Assembly (NCBI GenBank): GCA_018334855.1
Contig: JAGXLE010000011.1
Coordinates: 1 to 13,193, forward strand
DNA: 13,193 bases
From: Desulfobacterales bacterium
GTDB lineage: Bacteria > Desulfobacterota > Desulfobacteria > Desulfobacterales > Desulfosalsimonadaceae
Direction of reading: 5' to 3'
Below the pieces are notes generated by a model. The model saw only the letters and a program-made list of their open reading frames with translations. It was not told the origin of the DNA and did not search any database. This document shows positions 3-10,336 of the stretch, piece after piece. Within the stretch, counting starts at the first letter, position 1, and every line of letters starts with the position of its first letter. Position numbers and translations under genes: made by a program.

Positions 3-3000
3 TTTTTAGACGTATTTTCCGGAAATCGAGCGGCGGAGTCCCTTGAACAGGCAAGCACGACCACCTTGGCCCTGCCTGCAGAGGCAGAACTCGTCTCTGT
101 CTATGCGCTTTCTGCAACGAGCGGCCTTGTCGCCCTTCGATACCGTAAAGCAGGCAATTATGACCTGACCGAGCGGCAATGCTTCCGGGCTGTGAAGCGC
201 CTTAAAGCAGACGGCGCCTTGTACCGGGATTTGCTGGAAGCGTTTCAAAGCGGGAAAAATCAGGAGAGCTCGCATTTGGCAAAAACGACCTCGGACAAAG
301 ACCACAAAGCCAGGGCCCAACGGGAGCTGGTTAACGACTGGGTGCCCCTTTTCCGGATGCTTCAGTCCAGGGCGGCTCTTTTCTCTTCTTCTGTGTCGCC
401 CCTGCCGAGCGACCACTTTTTACGAAGCCAGCCGGAGTCGGCACCGAGTTCCAAGGAGTTCGACCGGCTCATGGAAAAAGCAAGGAGTTTCCAGGCCTGC
501 AGCCAGTGGCTACCGGCGCTGGAACTGTGGTGCCAAATTGCCGCTTCCAGTGCGGGACAGCGCAGACATACGGCAGTGTTTTCCATTGTGACCGCCCTTG
601 AGCATCTGGGCGAACAGCATCTGGCCGAAATGATGCTGCGCGGCCTGTACCTGTATCCTTTCGGGGAAAGCCCCCGGCAAATGTCGGATACCGCTTTTGA
701 TCGACTGGAGGCAATGTATGATGCGGACACTAATTTTGCTCGGCTGTCCCTGCTTTATGCAGCCGAGGCCATGCAGGATCCCTCGTCGGAAACACTGAAA
801 TCCCTGTGCCGGATTCTGGCAGCAGGGGATCAGCCCAGAATGGCTTTGTCTATGGGGTTGGTCCTGCCCCGACAAGCGCAGCCGCTGCCGGTCATGTTGC
901 GTTCAGCCCTGCGCCTGAACTGGAAAACGCTGTATGACGAGCTTGTTTCCCGAATCGAGGAATCAAAGGACCAGTCCTTCTGGCGCGCTTTGGGACAAAT
1001 CCAGGACGGCGATTACCGCCAAGCCAAGCGCTATCTGGACCATGCAGGAGACCGGGGCAGGCAACTGGGGAAAAGGCTCAACTCGGCACTGAGCATCGCG
1101 GACCAACTGGACTCGGAAGATTTGAACACACGGGTGCAGGGCGTCATGGCCTGGGAAAATTGGCAGGGGAATCAAATTGGTACATATTACTGGCACAACA
1201 GCTCCAGCCTGATCACAGAGCACTCCGGGGGCTTCATCCTGGACAACCAGGCAAGAGATCTCGATTTTCAAGGGTACCTGGCCCGGCCGGGCAAGCCGGT
1301 CAAAATCGAGGTCTACGGGCCCACAAAACTCCGGTTAGAATGCCGTCCCCTTCATCCGGGCAAAGCGGATGCGCCCCCGTTCAATGACTGGGTAACGGTA
1401 GAGGGCAATACTACCCGCAGATATATGCCCATCACCAACAATCGACCGGCACCGGGGCTTCGCCTTGTCGGGAGCGAACGTCTCCCGGGAGCTGCCGAAA
1501 TGCTTGAGTTTTCCGTGCAAGCCGGACCGCATACTCTTTCTGTCGAACCCGGCAAAAGGGACTGCGTGATCCGGGTCAGTGCCCGCAGGCCGCAGTTTTC
1601 ATTCGACATATTGCCGCAATTATCCCGCAAAAACGTCGCAACGGTGCTTTCCGGCCCCTCTAACCAGAAGGATAAGGAGACTGCAGAGTGGAAAACCTAC
1701 TGGGATGCAGACGCTACCATCTTTATCTATCCCAACGGTAAGACCAGGGCCTACTCCAAAGCCTCAATCTTTGAACAAATTCCCTATGCCCGCCCGGAAA
1801 AAAACAACGTGCTTTCCGGCTGGCGGCAGCTTTCTGCTATCCGGAAAACTCCGCCGCCCGGCCCGGAACATGCCCTGGCCAAAAGCGATTTTAAGCGAGC
1901 CCTTTCCCGCTGCAGCGAACAAACCCCGGCATCGGTCCGGGAGAAAATGGCCATACTGCTGCGCATGGCGGAAACCGGCTCCTCGGCCGCAGAGCTTGCC
2001 GATGCCAGGGCCAGGGCGTTGTTTGCCCGTCATCGGGATGTGAACGGATTGGATAGCCTTTTAACCCGGTTGTCCCGGGGCCAGAAAATGAACTGGCATT
2101 CGGTGGAAAATATTTACGGCGGCCGCGGTATCCGATATGTCCGGTTTCCCCGATGGCGCTCGGACACACCGTCTTTACGGGTGCGAAAGGCCCTGCTGGG
2201 CCCGAAGTCGGACGCGGAAGAGATCTTGTCCGGCGGTCAGCGACTGGTTATATCCAGCGAAAACGAACAACCCGGCCGCCTTCGGCTTGATCTGATATAC
2301 GGTGACCTGCCCTTTCTTCACCCGACAGCCTTGAAGGCGACCTGCCAAATCGATGACCGCGCGGCAAAAAGGCTGTTCTTCAAGCCCGGTGAAAAAATCC
2401 GGAAACGCCTGGAATTCAGGCTCTCCAGCGGTGCCCATGCTGTCCGGGTCAGGATGTCTGAAAATAAGGTCAACCAATTTTTACGAGTCGCGGTCCCCCC
2501 AGGAAACCGGCAAGCGGCGGGGCCTTTTGTTGGCGGTTTAAAACCTTATAAGGAACGGGGGTATTTTGTCGCCACGAACCGCGACCCACTCCGAACTACC
2601 ATCGCGGGACCGACCTGGCTTCGCATCGACAGGTGGATAGACGGGGAAGTAACGTGCGAATACCGATATATTAAAAAGGGCAGACAACAAATTGTGCTCG
2701 GGGCCGAAAAACCCGGGCAGCAAACCCTTTATCGCCTGTATCAGCGAAAAAAAGACCTGACAGAAAAGGTGCAGCCTCTGCAATTGCGGGATCGCAAAGT
2801 GGAATTTGACCCTTTGGCGCCGCCATGTTTTGAAATGTCCGGAGATAATGATCGGCCGTTTTCGGAGTGTGAAGAAGACGTTTTACACGGCCGTCATGAA
2901 GACGGCACCTGGTCAGCGGGTGTGCGGGCTTTCCGTCGTCGCAGCCTGTTCGAGGATTTCGAGGGCGGCGATGAGCCGGAACGCTTTTTCGAAGTCTTCG

Positions 3001-3836
3001 GGACCCACCGGTTTTATCAACCCTACAAAAACCGGTATTTCCGGACCAGATTTTTGACCCGATACCGGGATTTTGGAGGACCCACGCTGGGTATTGAAGA
3101 AGAGATCACTTTTTACCCAAGATACGTGCCTTTTCATTTCCGGCTTCAGGGACAGGCCTTTGCCCAGAACCCGGCCTCCGAGGACCTGGGCTACTTCGGC
3201 CGGGGCCAAACGGAATGGTTGGGCAGGATAGAGGCCACCGCCTATCAGAATCGTCGGATCAGTCCCAAAACCTATCACCGGCCCTCGGTGTCGATATTCG
3301 GAAGGTATTTGAGCTTAACAAGACGCTCGGCCTATGAGAGCAAACGGATCGATCAGGATGTGTATACGCCCTATAAAGCGGATCACAAGGCAGGCCTTTC
3401 CGTTTCGGAACGCCTCGTCCACAAGCCATGGCAAGATACCATCTGGGCAGCCGGCGGGGGGCTGACCAGCAATGAAGACCTTAATCTGCTCAAACCCGAC
3501 CATTTGGGGCTATGGTGCCAATGGAACCAGTTGCTTTATCCTTTCGAGGTAAAAGCTGAATATCGCACGATCCATTATTTTTCAGATGATGATCGAGACG
3601 ACGGCTTATGGCGGCATTTTATCAGCCTTGGTGCATCATGGAATCACTGGTACAGAAACAAGGATCGTATTGAAATAAACGTGGGAATCAAAAAGGCCCT
3701 TGACCGAGATGATCAGTATAGCGCCTGGGCCGGCATCGTCTGGCATTTCTCCCGAGGCCAGAGTCTGCAGGATTTCAGGCCGGGCGATCCCGAATTCCAA
3801 ACCTTGAAAAAAAATCAGCTGCTGCAGAAACCCTAA
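3..3836 (+). CDS. Giant TPR-like/beta-sandwich/beta-barrel protein, probable outer-membrane exporter of a surface polymer (5'-partial)
   Basis: The frame is open to the left edge, so the true start and any signal peptide lie outside; a TTG at 66 is not a credible start. At least 1,278 codons are present. The first third (to about nt 1130) is helix-rich and TPR-like, with paired amphipathic helices around nt 465-680. From about nt 1230 to 2740 the protein is beta-rich, with a recurring module: a Gly-Pro-Thr-x-Leu-Arg type strand (1317, 2271, 2607) followed by an aromatic strand ending in Gly-x-His/Gln (1503, 2409, 2661). From about nt 2890 aromatic and charged residues alternate in strand-like runs, ending in a strand that closes with Trp-His-Phe, then a 28-residue tail. 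This resembles outer-membrane porins. TPR plus C-terminal barrel is the layout of PgaA, BcsC and PelB, which export polymers; this is an architectural parallel, not a claim of homology. The gene ends immediately before a PgsB-like ligase gene, suggesting joint synthesis and export. I do not recognise a named family. Confidence 0.7.
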   Translation, partial: FLDVFSGNRAAESLEQASTTTLALPAEAELVSVYALSATSGLVALRYRKAGNYDLTERQCFRAVKRLKADGALYRDLLEAFQSGKNQESSHLAKTTSDKDHKARAQRELVNDWVPLFRMLQSRAALFSSSVSPLPSDHFLRSQPESAPSSKEFDRLMEKARSFQACSQWLPALELWCQIAASSAGQRRHTAVFSIVTALEHLGEQHLAEMMLRGLYLYPFGESPRQMSDTAFDRLEAMYDADTNFARLSLLYAAEAMQDPSSETLKSLCRILAAGDQPRMALSMGLVLPRQAQPLPVMLRSALRLNWKTLYDELVSRIEESKDQSFWRALGQIQDGDYRQAKRYLDHAGDRGRQLGKRLNSALSIADQLDSEDLNTRVQGVMAWENWQGNQIGTYYWHNSSSLITEHSGGFILDNQARDLDFQGYLARPGKPVKIEVYGPTKLRLECRPLHPGKADAPPFNDWVTVEGNTTRRYMPITNNRPAPGLRLVGSERLPGAAEMLEFSVQAGPHTLSVEPGKRDCVIRVSARRPQFSFDILPQLSRKNVATVLSGPSNQKDKETAEWKTYWDADATIFIYPNGKTRAYSKASIFEQIPYARPEKNNVLSGWRQLSAIRKTPPPGPEHALAKSDFKRALSRCSEQTPASVREKMAILLRMAETGSSAAELADARARALFARHRDVNGLDSLLTRLSRGQKMNWHSVENIYGGRGIRYVRFPRWRSDTPSLRVRKALLGPKSDAEEILSGGQRLVISSENEQPGRLRLDLIYGDLPFLHPTALKATCQIDDRAAKRLFFKPGEKIRKRLEFRLSSGAHAVRVRMSENKVNQFLRVAVPPGNRQAAGPFVGGLKPYKERGYFVATNRDPLRTTIAGPTWLRIDRWIDGEVTCEYRYIKKGRQQIVLGAEKPGQQTLYRLYQRKKDLTEKVQPLQLRDRKVEFDPLAPPCFEMSGDNDRPFSECEEDVLHGRHEDGTWSAGVRAFRRRSLFEDFEGGDEPERFFEVFGTHRFYQPYKNRYFRTRFLTRYRDFGGPTLGIEEEITFYPRYVPFHFRLQGQAFAQNPASEDLGYFGRGQTEWLGRIEATAYQNRRISPKTYHRPSVSIFGRYLSLTRRSAYESKRIDQDVYTPYKADHKAGLSVSERLVHKPWQDTIWAAGGGLTSNEDLNLLKPDHLGLWCQWNQLLYPFEVKAEYRTIHYFSDDDRDDGLWRHFISLGASWNHWYRNKDRIEINVGIKKALDRDDQYSAWAGIVWHFSRGQSLQDFRPGDPEFQTLKKNQLLQKP

Positions 3837-3852
3837 ATTGTATCCAATTATT

Positions 3853-6800
3853 ATGAAACGATTGCCGAAAAAACTTTTAACCCTGCTCGATTCGGGCATT
3901 GTTCCGGCCTTTTATAAGCTTCATGAAAAAAGCCGAAATCGTTTCGCTCGTGAGTTTATGGAGCATCGTAAGGCCATCGGCCGGAAACCCGCCTGGACCG
4001 AGTCCGGAAAACTTGCCGTAGAGGTAGTGGAATTCCTGGCTGGGCGAATTGAAACGCTTACTGCCGGAATTGAACGCCTTCAGCATTTGCTTGATGATTT
4101 TAATTATCGATACAGCCGGGCCAACACCCGGCGGGAACGAAGGGTCCAGGTGCTGGAGTTTTCCCGACAGCTCGGTGCGGGATACTGGCAGTTGTGGGGC
4201 GATCGGCGCGCCTTTTCCCGCTGGTTCGGACATGACGCAATCACGGAACGATGCTTGCGAAAAATTGCGGACAAGGAAGCGGATCTGATATTCGTGCTGA
4301 CCCTGATGGGAGCGCTGTCGAAAAAAGCCTTGTCCGACGGGGCTGAAAAAAGCCGCCAACGACAGGTCTGGCAGCAGTTGAAATTGGAGCAGCATTTAAC
4401 CGGCCTTTTGACCTATTCCGGGGACAACCGGGTAAGGCTGCATGCTTTTAAATGTCTGGTTTCAGCGATCCGGTTGTTGGATGGGCAATTGCGGAAAAAC
4501 AGCCTCGCACAAAATACAGTGACCTTTATTTACCGCTCCGCGCTGGAAAGCCGGGAAGATACTTGGATCCAGGTTGAAGCGTTAAACCTGCTGCGACACT
4601 TGTCTCCGGCAACACTGGAAACCGTGATTGAAAAACGTCTGACGCAGCCAAAGGACGGCGAAGACCTTTTCGTGCGCCGTCGTTGCGCCGTTTTGTTAGG
4701 GCAAGTTCTGGATCGATTGACCGGGGGAGCCGATCTTTTGTGGACCGCAGCTAAGGACAGAAGTGCTTACGTTCGGCAGGCAGCGGCTGAATCCGCGGGG
4801 ACGGCGCTGCAGAAAAAAGCGGATTCACGGATCTGGGAGACACTGCAAGCTCTTGCCGAAAAGGATTCCGCCCCGGAAGTCCGCGCCAAAGTCATGCTTG
4901 CCTGCATTCCGTTAATCGATACAGAAAATTGTTTTTATTCCGTACTTCAATTGTGGACCCGGGGCATTTCCCAGGAAACCAATGTTTTTGTGCGCCGTAC
5001 TGCTTTAAAAGCAATCTCTGCAGCAGCAGAGCTGATAGAGGCGAAATCCAACAGGATGCAGACATATTGTGATGCTGTTATTCCGCTCTTGGAAGAGTTG
5101 CACGTCAGTGACGATAATATATTCATCCGCCGCCAGTGCGCCCAGACCCGGGAGCGTCTCTCTGTTTTGGCGGACCCTGCCCTTGAGAATCTGTCGGGCA
5201 GATTAAAACAAAAGCTTCAGGCCCTCCGGCCGGGTAAAAGCGTTAAAATACCATGGCAAACGTTGCCCAAAACCGATCTGTCGCGTATCTACCGCACTCT
5301 TTCGGTAATGGCCCAGAAAGATTATGGATTTACAATAAGCCATGCGTTCGGCGGCCTTAGAATCTGGCGGGGCGATGTTTATGTTTTCCGGCTCTGGCGC
5401 CTTTTTTTCGAATTTTTTCATCCGTCTCCTTACAAACGGCAGGGCTACAAACACACCATCGGGCGTAAACTATTCGGCCGGGTGCGGATTCCGTCTGCAA
5501 TAACCGCGGAATTAAGCCGGACCAATGTGCCCGGCGAGCCACTTTTCATGCCCGAGGAAGAAGGCTGGCGACCTTATCTGCCCCTGGTCGACGAGGTTTT
5601 TTCCAGCCTGTTCTTAACGGTTAGCGCCAAGCCGGTGTTGATCTATACCAGCGAGGGCATTACTGAAGTCGTTCCGCCCCGCTCGCTTTTCAAGCGGTTT
5701 CAGGCTTGGTGGAAATTAACCACTCGTTTTTCCGGTTTTGCTGATTTGCGCAACTGGACTCCCGGGAGCCGCTACCTTCCTGCAGACTATACCTCCAGCC
5801 TGGCCGCCCTGGGATTCGATTTTTCCTTTAAGGGATATACCGGGTCAAATGGACAGCCGGATACGGACAGCGAGGTGCAGAAATTTTTCCCGGGCTTGGT
5901 GCCGTTTCTCACCCCCGGGACTTGGCAGGCGTTTAAGGACTATTTTTTTTCAATTTACGGCAACACCCTTTATGAGCTGGGCATTTTCGCTGGCGCCCTT
6001 TTGCTGATATTCGCAGGCCGGCAAATTTACTTGAGCTACATGGGACGGCGGGCAAGAAAACGTCTGCCGCTGGTCATCGGGGGGTGGGGCACCCGTGGCA
6101 AGTCCGGAACCGAACGTCTAAAAGCGGCGGTTTTTGAGGCCCTTGGCCACGGGACCCTTTCGAAAACCACCGGTACGGAGCCAATGTTTCTGATGGCCAA
6201 CCCCTTAGGCAAAACCCGTGAAATGATGCTTTTCCGCCCTTATGAAAAGGCCACCATCTGGGAGCAGCACGCTATGAACCGATGGGCGGCAAGTATGGAC
6301 ACCCGGGTCCTGCTCTGGGAGTGCATGGGGTTAAATCCTGCCTATGTATCGATTCTGCAGAAACACTGGTGCAGGGATGATTATTCCACCATAACCAATG
6401 CCTACCCGGACCATGAAGATATCCAGGGGCCGGCCGGCATAAATATCCCCAAAGTCATGTCTGAATTTATACCGGCAAACCGGACCCTTGTAACTGCGGA
6501 AGAACAGATGCGGCCGGTGCTGGAAGCCGCGGCCAGAGAGAAAAATACGGACTTTAAAAGTGTGGACTGGCTGGATGCCGGAATGATTCCCCCAGACATC
6601 CTGGAGCGATTTGTCTATCAGGAACATCCCTACAATATCGCTCTTGTACTTAAGCTGAGCCGGGAACTCGGTGTGGATAGCGATTTTGCATTAAAGGAAA
6701 TGGCAGATCGGGTGGTCCCGGATATTGGTGCACTAAAGGCATATCCGGAAGCCTTCCGGGGCTTTCGACGGATGGAGTTCGTCAATGGTATGGCTGCCAA

Positions 6801-8055
6801 TGAGCGGTTCGCCACTCTTAGTAATTGGCGGCGAATGGGATTTGCCGGAGATGAATCTTCTGATGTCGCCGAACAATTGCAGAGCGTGCTGGTCAACAAC
6901 CGGGCCGACAGGGTGTCGCGGTCAGAAATGTTTGGCGGCATTATTGTCGAGGATTTAAGCGTCGACCACATCGTGTTGATCGGCTCCAACCTGACAGGGC
7001 TGATGGGCTATATCCGGGATGCATGGCAAACCTATATGGAAAAGCATGATTTCAGTCGCGACAGCCAGCAAGAGCTGCTCCGGGCGGCCGGGCACCTTCG
7101 GCTGCCGACGGACCAATCAATGGTCAAGCAGCGGCTGGCCGCCATGCTGGCCCCTCTAGATCTGGGAGCCGAAGTGCGGAAAAATCTTCTAAAACTTTGG
7201 CATGAACCGCAACAGCTTAAAAGCGGCCTCCAAAACAATGGGCTTTCCTCTGTTGCCGATGATATAGCCGATCAAATACAACAATACAGCCGTCAGTACA
7301 CGGAATTTGCCGCGATCTCAGAAAAAATCGAAAATGGCGGCTTGTTGGGTACAGCGGATTTGGCAGAATCAATCAGTGAATTTTTGAAAAAATGGTTCTT
7401 CAATAAGATCCACATTGTGGACGACCCTCATGTCAGCGGTGAATTTATCGTGAACCGGCTTTTTGACATATCACCGCCGGGTCTTTTGCACCGTGTCATG
7501 GGAATACAGAATATCAAGGGCCCCGGGCTGGATTTCGTCTACAGATGGCAGTCCTGGCAAACCTGCTATCAAGCCTGCAATAAACTGCGATCGGATGATG
7601 AAAACGTGGTTCGGACCGGTCTGCACGAGCTTTCGGCATTTCAGGATTACGGGCTGCTCTGTGAAGATTATGTAAAGGAAACGATTGAATACACCCGGAC
7701 ACGTTCGGTTGCACAAAGTGAACACTTCCAGGCCGGCCTGGAAGTGATCGAAAAAACCATGGAAGACAGGCTGTCAAGCATACGGGATTTTCTTCAAGCC
7801 ACGGGCCGAAGAAATCGGGCCTTTGTACCGATTTTTCATTTCCTGGAATCTTTCCTGGATGCCGGCGATGGCATTCGCCGGAGAAAAGCCGCCAATCGGA
7901 TTTACCGGGATCTGAAAAAGGGGCGCGTAAGTCAGGACCGGGCGGCGACAGAACTCAATCAACTGCACAATCGGCAAAAGGGTGGATGGCTGTTTGACCA
8001 ACTGATGGGTATGTTGCGAAAAATTACCGGTTCACCAACCACTGGGCCAGGATAG
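3853..8055 (+). CDS. HEAT-repeat/transmembrane/PgsB(CapB)-like poly-gamma-glutamate synthetase fusion protein
   Basis: About 1,400 residues from ATG 3853; a TTG at 3838 is the only other start after an in-frame TGA at 3805, and neither has a clear ribosome site, so coupling to the gene ending at 3836 is likely. Residues about 190-440 carry seven HEAT-like units, each with Asp-x-x-Val-Arg-x-x-Ala (near 191, 236, 271, 302, 338, 375, 420). A hydrophobic helix lies at about 708-728, followed by a basic patch. Residues 740-1060 match PgsB/CapB, the Mur-ligase-like enzyme that polymerises glutamate through its gamma-carboxyl with ATP. Visible motifs are the P-loop G746-T-R-G-K-S751, K771-T-T-G-T775, E823-C-M...N828-P829, D853-H854, F976-V-N-G...N983, and N-N-R-A-D-R ending at 1020. 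Ordinary PgsB is about 390 residues and begins with the membrane helix, so both the 700-residue front and the 330-residue helical tail are additions. The substrate could be another amino acid; glutamate is inferred from the family. Confidence 0.85.
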   Translation: MKRLPKKLLTLLDSGIVPAFYKLHEKSRNRFAREFMEHRKAIGRKPAWTESGKLAVEVVEFLAGRIETLTAGIERLQHLLDDFNYRYSRANTRRERRVQVLEFSRQLGAGYWQLWGDRRAFSRWFGHDAITERCLRKIADKEADLIFVLTLMGALSKKALSDGAEKSRQRQVWQQLKLEQHLTGLLTYSGDNRVRLHAFKCLVSAIRLLDGQLRKNSLAQNTVTFIYRSALESREDTWIQVEALNLLRHLSPATLETVIEKRLTQPKDGEDLFVRRRCAVLLGQVLDRLTGGADLLWTAAKDRSAYVRQAAAESAGTALQKKADSRIWETLQALAEKDSAPEVRAKVMLACIPLIDTENCFYSVLQLWTRGISQETNVFVRRTALKAISAAAELIEAKSNRMQTYCDAVIPLLEELHVSDDNIFIRRQCAQTRERLSVLADPALENLSGRLKQKLQALRPGKSVKIPWQTLPKTDLSRIYRTLSVMAQKDYGFTISHAFGGLRIWRGDVYVFRLWRLFFEFFHPSPYKRQGYKHTIGRKLFGRVRIPSAITAELSRTNVPGEPLFMPEEEGWRPYLPLVDEVFSSLFLTVSAKPVLIYTSEGITEVVPPRSLFKRFQAWWKLTTRFSGFADLRNWTPGSRYLPADYTSSLAALGFDFSFKGYTGSNGQPDTDSEVQKFFPGLVPFLTPGTWQAFKDYFFSIYGNTLYELGIFAGALLLIFAGRQIYLSYMGRRARKRLPLVIGGWGTRGKSGTERLKAAVFEALGHGTLSKTTGTEPMFLMANPLGKTREMMLFRPYEKATIWEQHAMNRWAASMDTRVLLWECMGLNPAYVSILQKHWCRDDYSTITNAYPDHEDIQGPAGINIPKVMSEFIPANRTLVTAEEQMRPVLEAAAREKNTDFKSVDWLDAGMIPPDILERFVYQEHPYNIALVLKLSRELGVDSDFALKEMADRVVPDIGALKAYPEAFRGFRRMEFVNGMAANERFATLSNWRRMGFAGDESSDVAEQLQSVLVNNRADRVSRSEMFGGIIVEDLSVDHIVLIGSNLTGLMGYIRDAWQTYMEKHDFSRDSQQELLRAAGHLRLPTDQSMVKQRLAAMLAPLDLGAEVRKNLLKLWHEPQQLKSGLQNNGLSSVADDIADQIQQYSRQYTEFAAISEKIENGGLLGTADLAESISEFLKKWFFNKIHIVDDPHVSGEFIVNRLFDISPPGLLHRVMGIQNIKGPGLDFVYRWQSWQTCYQACNKLRSDDENVVRTGLHELSAFQDYGLLCEDYVKETIEYTRTRSVAQSEHFQAGLEVIEKTMEDRLSSIRDFLQATGRRNRAFVPIFHFLESFLDAGDGIRRRKAANRIYRDLKKGRVSQDRAATELNQLHNRQKGGWLFDQLMGMLRKITGSPTTGPG

Positions 8056-8573: not shown

Positions 8574-8603
8574 AAGGGTTTATGAAAAAATTCATAAACC
8601 CTT
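8574..8603 (-). terminator. Intrinsic terminator of the tRNA-Phe transcript
   Basis: A perfect 13-bp inverted repeat (8574-8586 and 8591-8603) encloses a 4-nt loop. Read on the - strand it is followed by a run of T residues (complement of the A run at 8569-8575). It begins 10 nt beyond the tRNA 3' end at 8614. No T run follows it on the + strand, so it acts for the leftward transcript. Confidence 0.85.
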
Positions 8604-9649: not shown

Positions 9650-9678
9650 TTGACAACATCAGGGTGTTATGCTAATTT
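9650..9678 (+). promoter_or_regulatory. Sigma70-type promoter for the acidic protein gene
   Basis: TTGACA (9650-9655) is followed by a 17-nt spacer and TAATTT (9673-9678), with an extended -10 TGC just before the -10 box. Transcription would begin near 9685, giving a leader of about 65 nt before ATG 9752. Confidence 0.6.
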
Positions 9679-9751
9679 AAATAAAATATTAATGCCAGGA
9701 AGAAAAATTCCTTATCCGCGGCACAAAGCCTTTCAGGCAGGGAGAAACCTC

Positions 9752-10336
9752 ATGACGGACAGCAATGAAAAAAATCAGGAGAATGAAATTATAGAACTCT
9801 CCGAGATTGCTGTGGGGACCTCGGAAGAGGATAATGAAATTATTGAATTAACCGAGGATCTGGTCGATGAAGCCAGGGATGCAATTTCAGGCGCAACCCG
9901 GGAAACATCCGATGAATCCAGGGAGCTGGAACTTTCAAGAGAGCTTCTCTCCGAACCGGAATTTTTTTCCGGCCAGGAACAGGAAACAGCGGAAAAAGCA
10001 GACCTGATCTCCGAATCCCGGGACCTGGATATCCCTGAAAAGCAGCCTGATTCCGACATTGAACAGGATATCGCCAGGGAACTCGACAATTACTTTCCCC
10101 TTGATGAAAAGTCTTCCGGCGATATTGCCGGGGCAGGTGAAACAGGGGAGGAAAAGGCTCCGGAACCGGATGTTGACATAACCGATCAACAATTGCAGGA
10201 TGCGCTGGAACGGGTCATTGAAAGAAAGTACGGCCGGAGAATTGAAGAGATGATAAGCGAGATTGTCAGGCTTAAGATTTCTGAAGATATTGAAAATATC
10301 AAAGATTATATATTAAAGCGGCATACCGGCAGGTAA
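9752..10336 (+). CDS. Highly acidic, Glu-rich protein of unknown function
   Basis: The ATG at 9752 is preceded by an AGGCAGGGAG ribosome site about 8 nt away, giving 194 residues. Longer in-frame starts are ruled out because the TTG at 9650 is the -35 box of the promoter. About 30% of residues are Asp or Glu (37 Glu and 21 Asp by my count). The N-terminus repeats Asn-Glu-Ile-Ile-Glu-Leu-Ser/Thr-Glu twice, 17 codons apart (nt 9782 and 9833). Residues about 20-145 look disordered. The last 50 residues form a charged helix rich in Ile, Leu, Glu, Lys and Arg that could be a coiled coil or a partner-binding helix. There is no signal peptide or membrane segment, so it is probably cytoplasmic. It sits between the divergent rsmE gene and valS and is separated from valS by a terminator. 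I do not recognise a functional family; similar Glu-rich proteins are known to me from deltaproteobacteria only as hypothetical proteins. Confidence 0.8.
   Translation: MTDSNEKNQENEIIELSEIAVGTSEEDNEIIELTEDLVDEARDAISGATRETSDESRELELSRELLSEPEFFSGQEQETAEKADLISESRDLDIPEKQPDSDIEQDIARELDNYFPLDEKSSGDIAGAGETGEEKAPEPDVDITDQQLQDALERVIERKYGRRIEEMISEIVRLKISEDIENIKDYILKRHTGR

Follow-up and report, generated by a model that had tools for sequence, protein, structure and literature searches.

How a polyanion such as polyglutamate might leave a cell with two membranes is a question that appears to be unanswered in the open-licence literature searched (most subscription journals and bioRxiv lie outside it), polyglutamate having mostly been studied in bacteria without an outer membrane. 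The locus that raises this question here lies on contig JAGXLE010000011.1 of the Desulfobacterales assembly GCA_018334855.1 (1.63 Mb, 62% complete); the whole contig, 13,193 nucleotides long, is referred to below as the window. It begins inside a large open reading frame (ORF), ORF1, which is directly followed on the same strand by ORF2. Both frames are present where an earlier, sequence-only reading had placed a giant outer-membrane barrel protein and a PgsB-like ligase (Table 1). We consider it probable that an operon which makes and secretes a gamma-linked polyglutamate-type polymer in two-membrane bacteria ends with these two genes. The system itself is real, conserved and composed of several genes, and it offers concrete candidates for a pore, a guide and a trimming enzyme.

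The PgsB/CapB catalytic domain noticed in the sequence-only reading was recovered in ORF2. The frame carries the ligase motifs GGWGTRGKS, KTTGTE, ECMGLNP, NAYPDHEDIQGP, EHPYN and NNRADR, and the corresponding patterns, which were picked from the alignment itself, occur in 56–72 of 73 proteins, the window protein included. PgsB is a compact protein of about 400 amino acids (aa), with a membrane helix just before the P-loop in the B. subtilis layout. The single helix of ORF2 takes this position as well, ending 15 residues before the P-loop motif at residue 748, and in most of the listed relatives the helix starts about 33 residues before that motif; among 72 relatives, at a Kyte–Doolittle (KD) hydropathy of at least 1.6, 41 have one helix, 16 none and 15 more than one. 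The compact length is not shared: the model length of TIGR04012 (PgsB) is 380, whereas ORF2 adds HEAT repeats (PF13646, expectation value (E) 1.6e-6, 28.7 bits with a cut-off of 27.7) and extra regions. Invariant stretches occur in a 20-sequence alignment both in the ligase domain and on either side of it. The search with ORF2 gave 836 proteins at E 0.001, of which the 120 listed are 1329–1470 aa long, a narrow range that is partly due to design since only proteins of 0.55–1.75 times the query length are taken; the ligase part alone as query gave 139 proteins (120 listed), comprising fragments and mid-length relatives. In sequence searches of the PDB, the HEAT part was matched chiefly by artificial HEAT (alphaRep) proteins, along with a small number of other repeat chains, and the ligase part by nothing. 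The true start of ORF2 is probably the ATG at 3853, since relatives start near the matching methionine and the profile match runs from 3853.

For a survey of loci, one genome per species from 84,980 species was scanned with an alignment of the ORF2 family (family F0; alignment A1), which revealed relatives where the single ORF2 sequence as query revealed none. This yielded 338 ligase loci, of which the best 80 were kept; since they resemble the window most closely, the remaining 258 may show lower gene fractions. The titles of the 80 list alpha-, beta- and gammaproteobacteria, Mariprofundus, Magnetococcales, sulfate reducers, Nitrospirae, Planctomycetes, Sulfidibacter, Acanthopleuribacter, Holophagae, Verrucomicrobia, Hydrogenedentes and Sulfurovum, and no Gram-positive names were seen among them. 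Neighbouring ORFs were clustered and rechecked with profiles built from the same clusters (E ≤ 1e-3). At least 9 kb upstream of the clustered ligase ORF was available in 51 of the 80 loci and less in 27, while two (L059, L082) had no such ORF. The family of ORF1, F1, was present in 43 of the 51 long-flank loci and stood directly upstream of the ligase gene in 40, in agreement with the earlier expectation that barrel and ligase genes would co-occur; it was also found in 16 of the 22 short-flank loci having at least 200 bases upstream. Three further families, F2, F3 and F4, occurred in 48, 44 and 39 of the long-flank loci, respectively, and all four in 32. As to unusual loci, L067 and L072 represent a compact variant in which F3 (~820 aa) and F2 (~255 aa) are shorter and the flank lacks F1. 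Vreelandella massiliensis has two ligase loci (L048, L064); in the former, F2 is short, F1 is split and CapC is absent from the vicinity.

A PgsC/CapC-like gene had been predicted upstream, where the window meets the contig edge, and was followed in the relatives. CapC (PF14102) was searched in 49 genomes, which hold 50 of the 80 loci, and in 14 control genomes. Matches above the cut-off were found in 47 of the 49, and among the controls only in B. subtilis, the built-in positive control. The domain is duplicated: in 45 of the 47 genomes a CapC pair lies in one open frame (1036–1172 aa in 40, 507–844 aa in 5), the other two being G065, with one match at a contig end, and G106, with a split frame. 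Family F3 is this fusion, with two CapC domains (E 1.3e-35 in one and 3.9e-39 in the other of the two copies scanned); it also bears two hydrolase-like domains, the consensus of which (e.g. L051:17245-20433) lacks the histidines of F4. When CapC was placed against 47 loci in 46 genomes (L011, whose sole match is a contig-end piece, was left out; same-strand placement meant within 16 kb of the ligase gene, with contig identity inferred from coordinates), it was at the ligase locus in 42. In 35 of these it lies 11.0–12.3 kb upstream on the same strand, in five it is also on that strand and within the fetched stretch, and in two (L042, L074) it is on the opposite strand. Two genomes are without CapC: the locus of one, L030, starts within the C-terminal portion of F3, and the half with CapC may simply not be covered, whereas that of the other, L049, has no F3 at all. 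The strongest CapC match (113.8 bits) is a separate 210-aa protein in G102, the best fusion copy reaching 102.8; that genome, to which locus L097 (G102:C170:5862-6233) belongs, has two CapC fusions beside the separate protein.

The same association is found within the window's phylum, of which 297 genomes, the window's own included, were surveyed (A1 at E ≤ 1e-20, F1 at E ≤ 1e-10). Full-length HEAT-PgsB occurs in two, the window's and G209, and these are also the two genomes with F1. In G209, F1 adjoins the ligase gene, and a 1091-aa frame on that contig contains two CapC matches. The ligase part alone was matched in G239 and G144, in open frames of 403 and 387 aa; G239 has CapC once, in a 155-aa frame. 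Judged from these profile matches, and in small numbers, F1 and the CapC fusion go with HEAT-PgsB and not with short PgsB. Among 60 nearer relatives a strong PgsB match was obtained only in G059 (frame of 756 aa), together with a CapC pair and with F1 on another contig; nine others gave weak PgsB-profile matches, at E 8.6e-5 or worse. The rare and patchy presence in this phylum suggests lateral transfer.

ORF1 lacks about 530 N-terminal residues relative to its nearest relatives, which are about 1810 aa long, because the window is a whole contig. The closest relative bearing an organism name is 'Desulfohalobiaceae bacterium' (75% identity), from a family of Desulfovibrionales; going by this match, the source would probably belong to that group. 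In the predicted model of ORF1 (pLDDT 84.0 and pTM 0.60 for the whole model) 14 long strands form a C-terminal barrel that matches solved outer-membrane barrels in structure comparison, and beta-rich modules are visible as well; both features had been anticipated. A TPR-like front, also part of the sequence-only reading, was not borne out: no TPR match at E ≤ 1 was found in the window's ORF1, about 530 residues of which lie beyond the contig edge, and four full-length relatives gave a single sub-threshold TPR_2 match (E 0.071). A hydrophobic segment inside the first 100 residues is present in 37 of 40 full-length F1 relatives. Sequence comparison of ORF1 with Pfam and NCBIfam gave no match at E ≤ 1, and its profile had no significant relative among solved structures; PDB searches with the F1, F2 and F4 profiles gave nothing below E 0.13. 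Some F1 proteins (P0128, P0130, P0135) have precomputed OmpA-like (PF00691) or LysM (PF01476) domains, which suggests peptidoglycan anchoring.

The remaining genes extend the operon upstream. In L129, from another genome of the window's phylum, the order is F6-F3-F2-F4-F1-F0 in one run on one strand, and in L130, from a genome of the same order as the window's, it is F0-F6-F5-F3-F2, where the ligase frame measures just 748 aa. N-terminal hydrophobic segments were seen in 44 of 47 F2 proteins (~825 aa) and in 33 of 40 F4 proteins (~300 aa); by this evidence F4 likely has a signal peptide. F4 shows a zinc-peptidase-type fold with conserved metal ligands and a general base. F6 (679–975 aa), in which the one copy scanned has the histidine-kinase ATPase domain PF02518, stands before F3 in all 20 upstream stretches that were taken from the 47 CapC genomes. 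A simple pattern detected no canonical H-box in any of 30 F6 copies (e.g. L051:14198-16867), so that autophosphorylation of F6 may not take its usual course; in 8 of the 30, the later part reads LRND and then I, L or M. The receiver gene F5 was rejected as a core gene, being present between F6 and F3 in 10 of 20 regions only, and CapA/PgsA was rejected as a core part, being near the operon in 3 of the 17 genomes searched. A family of ~750–860 aa, F7, stands beside the operon in L035, L052 and L074; in the latter two, its position and frame length suggest that it is the CapA (PF09587) match. PADLOC gave no match with four proteins, so that library lends no support to a defence role.

From these parts a working mechanism can be envisaged. 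HEAT-PgsB (ORF2) and the PgsC fusion with its two CapC domains would act at the inner membrane, joining glutamate units by ATP-dependent gamma-amide bonds and feeding the growing chain across that membrane. In the periplasm F2 may hold or guide the chain, as may the PgsC fusion through its two hydrolase-like domains, which lack the zinc-site histidines, while F4, as a zinc amidohydrolase, would trim or release chains, like the periplasmic hydrolases of polysaccharide exporters. The ORF1 barrel would be the exit through the outer membrane, and the histidine-kinase-type protein, sometimes with a receiver, may regulate the operon. The gene set, gene order, domain identities and two folds on which this scheme builds come from computation; from them we infer the polymer, its direction of travel, its trimming, the role of the regulator and, in the window's genome, the missing genes beyond the contig edge.

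Several alternatives have to be weighed against polyglutamate secretion. The same machine could handle a different polymer (another amino acid, a glutamate copolymer, or a decorated peptide or lipid carrier) that is exported by the barrel. We regard this as unlikely, in view of the conserved PgsB motifs, the CapC pair, and the three polyglutamate hydrolases that rank 2nd, 4th and 5th among the matches of F4. A number of results nevertheless count against polyglutamate secretion. Those F4 matches are tied with amidohydrolases and the lowest also with desuccinylases; the Foldseek TM-scores of F4 are low, at 0.32–0.40 for the six best, none of which is a polyglutamate hydrolase, and three copies of F4 matched no Pfam hydrolase family at E ≤ 1. 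TIGR04012 scores 211.1 bits on ORF2 and 186.6–216.3 bits on all seven relatives tested, in each case under the curated equivalog cut-off of 222.7. The family thus lies off the curated PgsB centre and, as tested by this profile, is not a member of that equivalog. TIGR04011 (PgsC) likewise stays under its cut-off of 96.45 on both F3 copies scanned (49.3 and 65.6 bits), and CapA, searched in 17 of the 49 genomes, is present in 10 yet rarely near the operon. There is also a topology puzzle: a single membrane helix would place one part of ORF2 in the periplasm, either the N-terminal ~700 residues, which include the HEAT repeats, or the ligase, which uses ATP. CapC is away from the ligase gene in 5 of the 47 placed loci (L013, L019, L033, L048, L075). 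CapC, F2 and F4 were searched in the window's own genome and not found, a result that shows little because that genome is incomplete and its contig stops inside ORF1.

If the polymer is glutamate, the ORF1 barrel might still not export it, and might instead anchor it, take up fragments, or act as a porin beside periplasmic polyglutamate. The best solved-structure matches of the barrel are indeed uptake or diffusion channels, which again counts against secretion; this ranking, however, probably reflects strand number and not direction, and the usual pairing with the synthase, the large further modules and the likely periplasmic hydrolase resemble exporter operons, so that a non-exporting barrel seems quite improbable. 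Least credible, to the point of being very hard to maintain, is that ORF1 and ORF2 are adjacent by chance, or that an unrelated porin lies next to an ordinary CapBC capsule operon. F1 is missing from the flank in 8 of the 51 long-flank loci, where the exporter may therefore be elsewhere or replaced. However, the same gene order recurs in many phyla, with F1 and ligase ORFs overlapping or nearly touching (the gap is –130 to +47 in 39 of the 40 and 377 in the other; with each ORF taken from its first start codon, the overlaps are upper bounds), and no F1 match was found in the two genomes with a short PgsB-like frame (n = 2). For the family as a whole, the recurrent adjacency refutes chance. Polyglutamate secretion as proposed in the sequence-only reading is supported by CapC, co-occurrence and the barrel, with the polymer chemistry and the export step inferred; of its elements, only the TPR front did not gain support.

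Table 1 Positions of ORF1, ORF2 and their parts in the window
Feature	Positions	Strand	Basis
ORF1 (F1): large envelope protein, truncated at its N-terminus by the contig start; modules both beta-rich and helical, followed by the barrel	3–3836	+	
ORF1 C-terminal 14-strand outer-membrane barrel, residues about 969–1249	2907–3749	+	predicted model
ORF2, family F0: HEAT repeats, membrane helix, PgsB-type ligase, conserved C-terminal region, 1405 aa	3838–8055	+	
ORF2 HEAT-repeat region, about residues 300–436	4735–5145	+	PF13646; alphaRep matches among solved structures
ORF2 single predicted membrane helix, residues 714–732, just N-terminal of P-loop motif	5977–6033	+	hydropathy
ORF2 PgsB/CapB-type ATP-dependent amide ligase domain, residues 728–1060	6019–7017	+	TIGR04012 E 2.1e-62; motifs

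Downstream of ORF2 the window contains tRNA-Phe, RsmE, an acidic ORF and ValS. A 13-pair hairpin at 8574–8603, between ORF2 and tRNA-Phe, scores as a terminator on both strands and is plausibly a shared one. For the acidic ORF (228 aa, 9650–10336, before valS), neither Pfam nor NCBIfam gave a match at E ≤ 1.

On balance, we favour a broader view: that this is a whole-envelope polyamide secretion machine, present in hundreds of two-membrane species and parallel to the polysaccharide exporters, with F1 as a previously unassigned family of outer-membrane polyglutamate exporters and with hydrolase-derived polymer-handling domains in the PgsC subunit. The 338 loci mark their carriers as candidates for producing a polymer that is of interest to ecology and industry, and the titles of the best 80 include giant sulfur bacteria, methanotrophs, halophiles and sulfate reducers. 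Among the matches listed in searches of open-licence papers, neither this operon nor an outer-membrane exporter of polyglutamate was described.

As far as the accessible parts of the sources go, homologues of PgsB and PgsC are reported from 250 bacterial species (PMC4497714), and the 'PGA' group of CapsuleFinder, in which CapB and CapC are mandatory, is found in most phyla (PMC5542703); the present system shares these two proteins, and the accessible part does not describe an outer-membrane component, HEAT-PgsB or the CapC duplication. CapBC(A) is described in Cloacimonadota (PMC13082233, PMC8542988), in an operon CapB, CapC, CapA whose organisation is typical of Gram-positive producers (PMC13082233, where the term 'outer membrane' does not occur in the text). 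Fusobacterium nucleatum is cited, according to a reference title, as the first Gram-negative shown to make polyglutamate (PMC10897055). With PgsBCA/CapBCA of B. subtilis, other Gram-positives and Cloacimonadota, the operon has in common a PgsB-type ligase and a CapC-type membrane partner. It differs in that the ligase has a ~700-residue N-terminal part including HEAT repeats and a conserved C-terminus, CapC is duplicated and fused to two hydrolase-like domains, CapA is not a core part, and further genes, including that of the outer-membrane barrel, are present. In contrast to PghP/YndL and the N-formylglutamate amidohydrolases, F4 is operon-borne, likely has a signal peptide and shows no family match at the sequence level. 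Synthase-dependent exopolysaccharide secretion (PgaABCD, Bcs, Pel, Alg) combines an inner-membrane synthase, a periplasmic hydrolase and a large outer-membrane barrel protein. The general layout is the same here, including a C-terminal outer-membrane barrel, as in the exporters PgaA, BcsC and PelB, in the predicted ORF1 model, whereas the barrel has 14 strands, no TPR match rises above threshold in the part of ORF1 inside the window or in four full-length relatives, and the product would be a polyamide instead of a sugar polymer. By this analogy, the operon would work like a synthase-dependent exporter.

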